64,000 nt of DNA from Hirudinaria manillensis (lineage: Eukaryota > Annelida > Clitellata > Hirudinida > Hirudinidae). The stretch spans positions 3,766,001-3,830,000 of the forward strand of contig CM067537.1 in NCBI GenBank assembly GCA_034509925.1, given 5' to 3'. A model generated the notes under the pieces. That model ran no database searches. It was not told where the DNA came from and saw nothing but the letters and a program-made list of their open reading frames with translations. Shown here one piece after another: positions 45,366 to 47,523 of this stretch (its first letter is position 1; every line of letters begins with the position of its first letter). Made by a program: the position numbers and the translations under genes.

Positions 45366-45498
45366 AATAATAATAATAATAATAATAATAATAATAATAA
45401 TAATAATAATAATAATAATAATAATAATAATAATAATAATAATAATAATAATAATAATAATAATAATAATAATAATAATAATAATAATAATAATAATA
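45366..45498. repeat. (AAT)n microsatellite, about 130 bp
   Basis: Perfect AAT run abutting the left direct repeat of the R2-like insertion; its last part is probably included in the duplication. Confidence 0.95.
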
Positions 45499-45634
45499 AA
45501 AGCTTCACTTCACTGCGTCCAAAAACGCACTTCAAAAAGTTCCTTCAAGGTTAAAGAACTCTTGAGACCATTGGCTAAACAGTGATTTGTCAGAACGTTT
45601 GTGTATCTCAAGCGAACATGTATCAAACGATTGC
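45472..45634. repeat. Left direct repeat (target-site duplication) of R2-like element
   Basis: 134 bp (45501-45634, from AGCTTCACTTCACTGCGTCC to CATGTATCAAACGATTGC) are identical to 47390-47523. A further 29 bp of AAT repeat also match, but that part cannot be assigned uniquely. Confidence 0.9.
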
Positions 45635-46943
45635 CTCGATAACCAGCGAACTGGATCAATCAATTGGTGTCACGGCTGGCAGAAATTCAGCGATCAGATG
45701 CAATTATATTGCATTCGCTGATGATCTGGTGGTGATGTCAACAACTGACATCGGAATGAAGAAGTTGATGGAGCAACTTGAAACTGCAATGGGCAGCGCA
45801 GGACTTAAGATCAATCCAAACAAGTGCGCTACACTCAGAACGGAAACCCATTGCAAGGAAAAACGCTGGATAATCAATCCTACGCCCTACATTAAATTTG
45901 AATCACAGGATATCAAAGCAATAGACGTCTCACAGACTTACAAATACCTGGGGATACAGATTGGAGTTCGAAAGCAGCCAGTGTCGATCGGCTATGAAAT
46001 TCAAAAGTCTCTCAACTCCATTTCAAAGGCACCAATTAAGCCTTGCCAACGCCTATATATTTTAAAAGTCCATCTGATACCAAGCCTCGTTCACAAACTT
46101 ACCTTTGGCGAGGTCAACCTCGGTTCTCTGAGTTCCTCAGATACCGCGATTAGGAAAGCAACAAGACATTGGCTTCATCTTCCAAAGGATGTCCCAAAGC
46201 CATTTTACCATGCTCCCGTCAAATCCGGTGGTCTGGGAATACTTCCACTTAAACAATGGGTTCCCCGGCTCAGAATAAATAGATTGACAGATATCTTCTC
46301 TGAGACAGGTGGTCGTAAAGATGAATTCCTGTTGGATGTTCTTAGGAACAACACCCTGATCATGAGAGAATTCCGGAAATTTGGAACGTCGGAGGCAAAA
46401 CAAGCAAAACTAGATTGGAAAGTGGCGGCCTCAGAGAGCCTATACAAAACTGTAGACGGTTATGGATTAAGATCATTCACCAGAGGAATTGGAATGAGTG
46501 ATTGGATTTCAGCAGCGGTTCCAAGAGTTCCATCTGGCCAATACATCAAATGCATAAAAGTCCGAGCGGCCGCCCTTCACTGCAGACTCCGAGCATCGAG
46601 ATGGAATCCTCTGGCTTCAAGGAGATGCGGGGAGGGCTGCAATTCTTTCGAATCGCTGGGCCACATGATCCAGAGATGCCCGAGAACGGATGGCCCAAGG
46701 CATGAAAGACACAACGCTGTCGTCAGGGAATTAGAACGGGAATTACGAAAAAGGGGTTATACTACGGTAATAGAGCCCCGTATTCCCACAGAAAAGGGAC
46801 TCAAAATTCCTGATTTGTGTGCCTGGACACGTGACCTCTACATAGTGACTGATGTTGCCGTGACATCCGATGATTATGATTTAGACAAGTGTCATAAGAG
46901 CAAGGTTTCAAAGTATGACATTAAAGATGTTCATGATTGTTGA
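45635..46943 (+). pseudogene. R2-like reverse transcriptase/endonuclease remnant
   Basis: The open frame runs 45582-46943 (453 codons) but its first ~17 codons come from the flanking duplicated target DNA, so that ATG is accidental. Visible features, numbering from 45582: RT catalytic box AFADDLVV (44-51); GLKINPNKC; thumb-like region YKYLGIQIG; zinc knuckle C-x3-C-x6-H-x4-C (in CGEGCNSFESLGHMIQRC); and a REL-endonuclease signature KIPDLCAWTRDLYIVTDVAV with later KVSKYD. The usual C-terminal segment (CVCNWRGVMSAESYRFW) lies in another frame from about 46937, so the frame is shifted near 46930. Lacking the RT palm start and frameshifted, the copy is dead. Confidence 0.85.
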
Positions 46944-47360
46944 GGAATGCCCCAGCCGGTGTCCAAAGAATGCTTCCGAAGGTTGGCGCCTGCGTTTGCA
47001 ACTGGAGAGGAGTCATGAGTGCAGAATCATACAGATTCTGGAGAGAGTGCGGCGCTTCGAAGACGAGTTTAATGTACGTTGTGCTCTCGGTCCTCAGTCA
47101 CAGTTACAAAATCTGGAGGGCTCACAGGTGCCCACTTCCGAGGGCAATCGCACTTTCTCGGACTGCGAATTCTCAATGACATTGGCAGTTGACGTTACTC
47201 GGCGCGTTCGATCGTGATTTCACCTTCTGACCGAATGTCCAGGGTGATCTCGGGCCCTAGTGCGGACACTAAACTTTGGAGAGGCCGTCGGAATATTGTT
47301 GTTTGTGTTTTGGGTGTGAGGCCGAGAAAATAAAATTAAAAAAAAAAAAAAAAAAAAAAA
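45635..47360 (+). mobile_element. 5'-truncated R2-clade non-LTR retrotransposon
   Basis: Element body between long direct repeats. It starts inside the reverse transcriptase domain (5' truncation), contains the end of RT, a CCHC-type zinc knuckle and a C-terminal restriction-like endonuclease, then a short 3' UTR (about 47216-47337) and an A-rich tail (47338-47360). The order RT - CCHC - endonuclease and the FADD catalytic box are those of R2/NeSL-type elements, which lack an APE endonuclease. The insertion is not in a recognisable ribosomal RNA gene. Confidence 0.88.
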
Positions 47361-47523
47361 ATAATAATAATAATAATAATAATAATAAAAGCTTCACTTC
47401 ACTGCGTCCAAAAACGCACTTCAAAAAGTTCCTTCAAGGTTAAAGAACTCTTGAGACCATTGGCTAAACAGTGATTTGTCAGAACGTTTGTGTATCTCAA
47501 GCGAACATGTATCAAACGATTGC
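47361..47523. repeat. Right direct repeat (target-site duplication) of R2-like element
   Basis: Exact copy of 45501-45634 at 47390-47523, preceded by AAT triplets joined to the element's A tail. Flanking DNA diverges immediately after TTGC (CTCGAT on the left, ACGTGG on the right). Confidence 0.9.

Follow-up and report, generated by a model that had tools for sequence, protein, structure and literature searches.

A family of R2-type non-LTR retrotransposons in the leech Hirudinaria manillensis inserts into (AAT)n microsatellites and duplicates target DNA to a length that varies from copy to copy. We think it probable that the AAT repeat places the first nick, that the break in the second strand has no fixed position, and that fill-in of the resulting overhang makes the duplication. 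The longest of these duplications lies in the window, the 64,000-nt stretch of contig CM067537.1 (assembly GCA_034509925.1, positions 3,766,001 to 3,830,000, forward strand) that was analysed, where its features are as follows (window positions):

45365–45499, forward strand: (TAA)45 target array on the upstream side, a perfect period-3 repeat of 135 nt
45471–45634, forward strand: left copy of the target-site duplication, identical over 164 nt to 47360–47523
45635–45637, forward strand: CTC filler, three bases at the 5' junction, unlike both the target continuation and the element
45638–47361, forward strand: 5'-truncated non-LTR element with A-rich tail (blastn against copy L050; A-run at 47338–47361)
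45639–46943, forward strand: remaining reading frame, comprising the end of the reverse transcriptase (RT), thumb, CCHC motif and restriction-like endonuclease (matches to Pfam and to the R2Bm structure 8gh6)
47362–47388, forward strand: (TAA)9 run separating the tail from the unique target; downstream part of the target array
47360–47523, forward strand: right copy of the target-site duplication, 164 nt of identity

The flanking repeat consists of 30 bp of AAT/A followed by 134 bp of unique sequence (45501–45634 on the left, the right-hand counterpart finishing at 47523). The initial annotation had claimed that these 134 bp are identical on both sides; the identity is indeed exact and extends through the 164-bp repeat, and the coordinates then given were correct to within a base. 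A search of the 148.43-Mb assembly (23 contigs; simple repeats and very common words skipped) with positions 45498–45640 returned two matches, the two flanking copies themselves, and none elsewhere. Because only these two places were found, the 134-bp segment is neither a dispersed repeat nor a part of the element, the two possibilities that had been raised against a target duplication. The 134/134 identity is compatible with a recent insertion, as had been proposed, but identity gives no date; no empty site was seen. By blastn the element body corresponds to the reference copy L050 (3972 nt, tail excluded) from its position 2280 onwards, and the reading frame of the window copy stops sooner than the ORFs of L046 and L051.

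Microsatellite neighbourhoods tend to undergo duplication, and it might be argued that the segment was tandemly duplicated before insertion, or by later recombination, with the element lying between the units by chance. Yet the limits of the repeat coincide with the ends of the element, both in the window copy and in the other long cases, and every locus would need an insertion exactly at a unit junction. On this coincidence of limits we reject a pre-existing tandem repeat, and we regard an origin of this kind as extremely improbable.

Elsewhere in the window, two more long TAT/TTA arrays (43074–43221 and 59187–59292) have the opposite orientation to the AAT target array (45365–45499). Pieces resembling one transporter gene occupy 47947–51548, where the ORF at 50985–51548 has an MFS_1 match (1e-7) just below the family cut-off and the ORF at 47947–48300, with the insertion about 0.4 kb upstream of it, has no Pfam match. 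An ORF of 196 aa at 50162–50752 resembles by eye the C-terminal end of another non-LTR RT, Pfam giving no match. Further ORFs match the mTERF family (18562–19626), RING and NHL repeats (22519–24786) and the carboxylesterase family (36866–37495).

Copies were sought across the whole genome with a 38-nt 3'-end pattern at up to three mismatches, which yielded 65 places (33 forward, 32 reverse), while the reversed control pattern had 0 matches in the genome. Complete copies are about 4 kb long, from about TTGCGTCTCGAG to the tail, and the longest ORF that can be read as it stands, 1014 aa, belongs to L050. This ORF matches Bombyx R2 (R2Bm) with E 8e-100 for the whole match, the alignment covering RT to CCHC, and in a separate match (i-E 1.9e-7) its residues 30–131 align to R2Bm 113–215, a CCHH finger and Myb-like region; by Pfam alone the N-terminal finger is weak (E 0.23). 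Pfam RVT_1 recognises the RT domain in the family ORF (6e-33) and in the window ORF (6.5e-10), and the latter matches R2Bm structure 8gh6 over residues 22–427, a stretch that takes in CCHC and the endonuclease region (E 1.3e-58). The domain order is one CCHH finger with Myb-like region, RT, CCHC and restriction-like endonuclease; that CCHC and this endonuclease come after the RT within a single ORF is a feature of the R2 group. Among solved structures R2Bm is the closest relative of the family protein; for one segment of 560 aa the score is 298 bits between the element and R2Bm, compared with 254 bits between R2Bm and R2Tg over a shorter aligned stretch. On these scores the family appears to fit an R2 member or a near neighbour, the comparison being with R2 proteins only. 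The earlier reading that an R2-group element made a genuine target-site duplication outside rDNA is upheld.

Several copies are rearranged. In L045, L052, L022 and L023 the 5' part of the element is fused to a distant 3' part, which amounts to large internal deletions, and L061 is interrupted by about 1.2 kb of foreign DNA with eight element bases (3870–3877) on each side. Downstream of L059 the flank resembles, by eye, part of a further RT element related to the family and situated within or next to the AAT array.

All 48 different 3' junctions examined carry an AAT run of at least two units in the first 110 nt, against 18% of random window stretches. A stricter test used the 39 copies with 600 nt downstream and 4000 random draws from the window: 37 of the 39 had an AAT run of at least three units within 110 nt of the 3' end (random stretches, 4.45%), and ATT runs of at least three units were found at 0 of 39 3' ends. 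Since the 3' ends meet AAT runs in a single orientation, the family targets (AAT)n and enters the arrays in one orientation. Insertion into 28S rDNA, a feature of the R2 clade, is absent. The element had been correctly described as lying outside rDNA, but the AAT run noted beside it is more than a neighbour.

Both junctions were read in 30 copies, a set that does not include nine other truncated copies. For ten further copies about 100 nt of 3' flank were searched against the genome with a sensitivity of about 20 nt; these were ten of 19 prepared flanks, the other nine lying at a distance from the element or within repetitive DNA. L017 has the masked L069 on its 5' side, so that its missing second match carries no information, and it was excluded from the count. 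Also excluded, before the count of 39, were L042, L066, L069 and L072 (5' side N), L061 (5' end not reached) and L023 (N-stretch and internal deletion). Among the nine judgeable copies of the flank search the flank recurs 5' of the same element in L006 and L022; the other seven had no second match at this sensitivity.

In nine of the 39 judged copies the duplicated unique DNA amounts to 30 bp or more, with lengths of 134, 121, 53, 45, 43, 40, 40, 33 and 33. The repeat that had been described as exceptionally long thus heads a wide range of target duplications. The exact duplications of two copies are comparably long, 164 nt in the window (134 non-AAT) and 133 nt in L064/65 (121 non-AAT), as would be expected if the stagger were long and fixed as in R9, with two recognition sites some 126–164 bp apart. 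But elsewhere in the family the exact duplications measure 84 nt (L022), 78 (L006, 53 of them unique), 73 (L013, 45 non-AAT), 67 (L007, 40), 62 (L044, 40) and 42 (L043, 33), and still others duplicate AAT only; in L015 the non-AAT duplication, read from the sequence, is 33 with one mismatch. This spread contradicts one fixed stagger, unless another process produced the shorter cases, and a pair of recognition sites at such a distance is extremely improbable. Measurement in other copies had been proposed by the initial annotation, and it shows a range of 42 to 164 nt among the exact long duplications, a variation that tells against one fixed long stagger.

Long duplications occur in both 5'-complete and truncated copies, L043 being 5'-complete. 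The notion that 5'-complete copies, unlike truncated ones, always abut AAT is contradicted by L043, L006 and L022. Truncation point and unique duplication length gave a rank correlation of rho 0.40 (p 0.046) for 25 of the 30 copies, a value on which we do not rely and in which L015 was entered as 42 where the sequence gives 33.

The non-AAT part reaches at least 33 nt in six of 30 own flank pairs, and in L015 as well, whereas among 870 mismatched left/right flank pairs the largest non-AAT shared stretch was 20 nt, reached by a single pair; 29 control pairs reached 10 nt and 121 reached 5 nt. Small values, namely 11 (L026) and 5 (L057, L058, L073/28), and at loci in repetitive DNA 18 (L063), 12 (L049), 11 (L012) and 9 (L046), do not stand out from this control. 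The remaining copies show an AAT-only duplication or next to nothing, and in many the length is unmeasurable because they sit wholly in AAT. A repeated flank is absent at L048, L060 and L067/74, where both junctions were read, and at L070/71 just nine AAT-type bases are repeated (27 nt of left flank covered). Not all insertions fit, therefore, although these four loci could be deletions or later rearrangements.

The filler at the 5' junctions can be observed as directly as the duplications, their spread in length, their limits at both element ends, and the AAT target with its orientation. Flush joins, or up to four bases common with the target, are found at L012, L043 and L073/28. Filler is found in the window (CTC), L007 (15 nt), L057 (14), L070 (13) and L022 (seven); in the last four it repeats adjacent element sequence. 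Filler of this sort also arises in polymerase-theta-type joining. No common sequence was noticed at the second break, by eye only. Random breakage of the second strand by host processes has been proposed for LINE-1, and here, too, the element might nick the first strand alone, the second being broken at random by a replication fork, host nuclease or end joining. The element-copied filler, the broad spread of duplication lengths and the lack of a visible common sequence are all consistent with such host processing. Nonetheless, we consider it rather unlikely: the best relatives, represented by R2Bm, use their own endonuclease on both strands (PMC6895275), and the AAT-targeting family has the endonuclease region too. 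We would lean slightly towards a second break made by the element's endonuclease cutting loosely, given that related elements perform both cuts on their own.

R2 integration proceeds by first-strand nicking, target-primed reverse transcription and second-strand cleavage, and the stagger sets whether deletion or duplication results (PMC6895275). With an AAT-placed first nick and an unfixed second break, the leech family would follow a variant of which we infer the order of steps and the agent of the second break. To judge from the 3' junctions, the bottom strand would be nicked within the AAT array and would prime cDNA synthesis at the A-rich 3' tail. The duplications would put the break in the top strand at a variable place, for many copies within the array, for others 30 to about 135 bp beyond it. 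The cDNA end may then be joined at this second break via a few common bases or short filler, partly element-derived, and the long single-stranded overhang would be filled in to give the duplication, 164 bp in the window copy. So wide a spread inside a single family speaks against a constant distance and against a second recognition site; most likely, the endonuclease subunit acting downstream would lack a defined site in the varied DNA past the array and cut with little positional control. This suggests that the second cut of this family is not fixed, unlike that of its well-studied relatives.

More tentatively, an R2-clade element may have switched to AAT microsatellites and uncoupled the two R2 cuts, the second falling up to about 165 bp away. 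If so, the first nick remains sequence-specific and the second lacks a dedicated site, over 100 bp of target have to be opened, and a 4-way-junction model designed with staggers of a few bases in mind needs changing. Second-strand cleavage has been called 'very poorly understood', and the same source gives each R2-group element a single offset: a 2-bp deletion for R2Bm, 9 for R8, 13 for R4 and 126 for R9 (PMC6895275). A well-placed first cut combined with a free second cut would constitute a natural experiment, with dozens of independent events in one genome, all starting from the same type of first-cut site, against which offset, common bases and filler can be measured. Gene insertion tools based on R2 would be concerned as well, since what becomes of the target depends on the second cut.

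Each component of this behaviour is already on record, long duplication in R9, TAA targeting in Dong and lost rDNA specificity in the R2NS families. Their union in one family, AAT targeting with variable long duplications, looks like a new combination, Dong's duplication length not entering the comparison. The accessible portions of the open-licence literature on R2-group elements (PMC3774820, PMC7998251, PMC7650587, PMC5035012, PMC2861651, PMC6895275, PMC3636483, PMC4640811) contain neither an R2-group family with variable long duplications nor an AAT-specific R2. Insertion into 28S rDNA is not universal in the R2 superclade, as R8, R9 and R2NS illustrate, and as of 2016 R8 and R9 were described as the only lineages of the superclade reported with another target (PMC5035012).

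Dong inserts into (TAA)n and so has its target in common with the leech family (PMC7998251, PMC3774820). R4/Dong elements, however, are described as being without N-terminal zinc fingers (PMC7998251), whereas the leech family has one that aligns to R2Bm, and R4 makes a 13-bp duplication (PMC6895275). Dong carries an HDV-like ribozyme at its 5' end (PMC3774820). At the 5' end (L050:2900–3400) Rfam gave four low matches to unrelated families and, at E up to 5, none to an HDV-like family, although Rfam models can miss such ribozymes. The HR in the element name HERO-1_HR presumably stands for another leech, Helobdella robusta. That element is listed in PMC7650587; some HERO families are microsatellite-specific, and HERO, likened here by description, has the restriction-like endonuclease in common with the leech family (PMC4640811).

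With R2Bm and the R2D group the leech family aligns in its single CCHH finger, Myb-like region, RT, CCHC and endonuclease region. R2Bm, however, inserts into 28S rDNA with a 2-bp target deletion (PMC6895275), whereas the leech family inserts into AAT with duplications. The parallel drawn by the initial annotation with R9 of the rotifer Adineta vaga is apt: R9 is likewise an R2-group element with a target duplication above 100 bp, 126 bp in rDNA (PMC6895275). R9 has an rDNA target and one stated length, whereas the leech family has an AAT target and a length that varies by copy.
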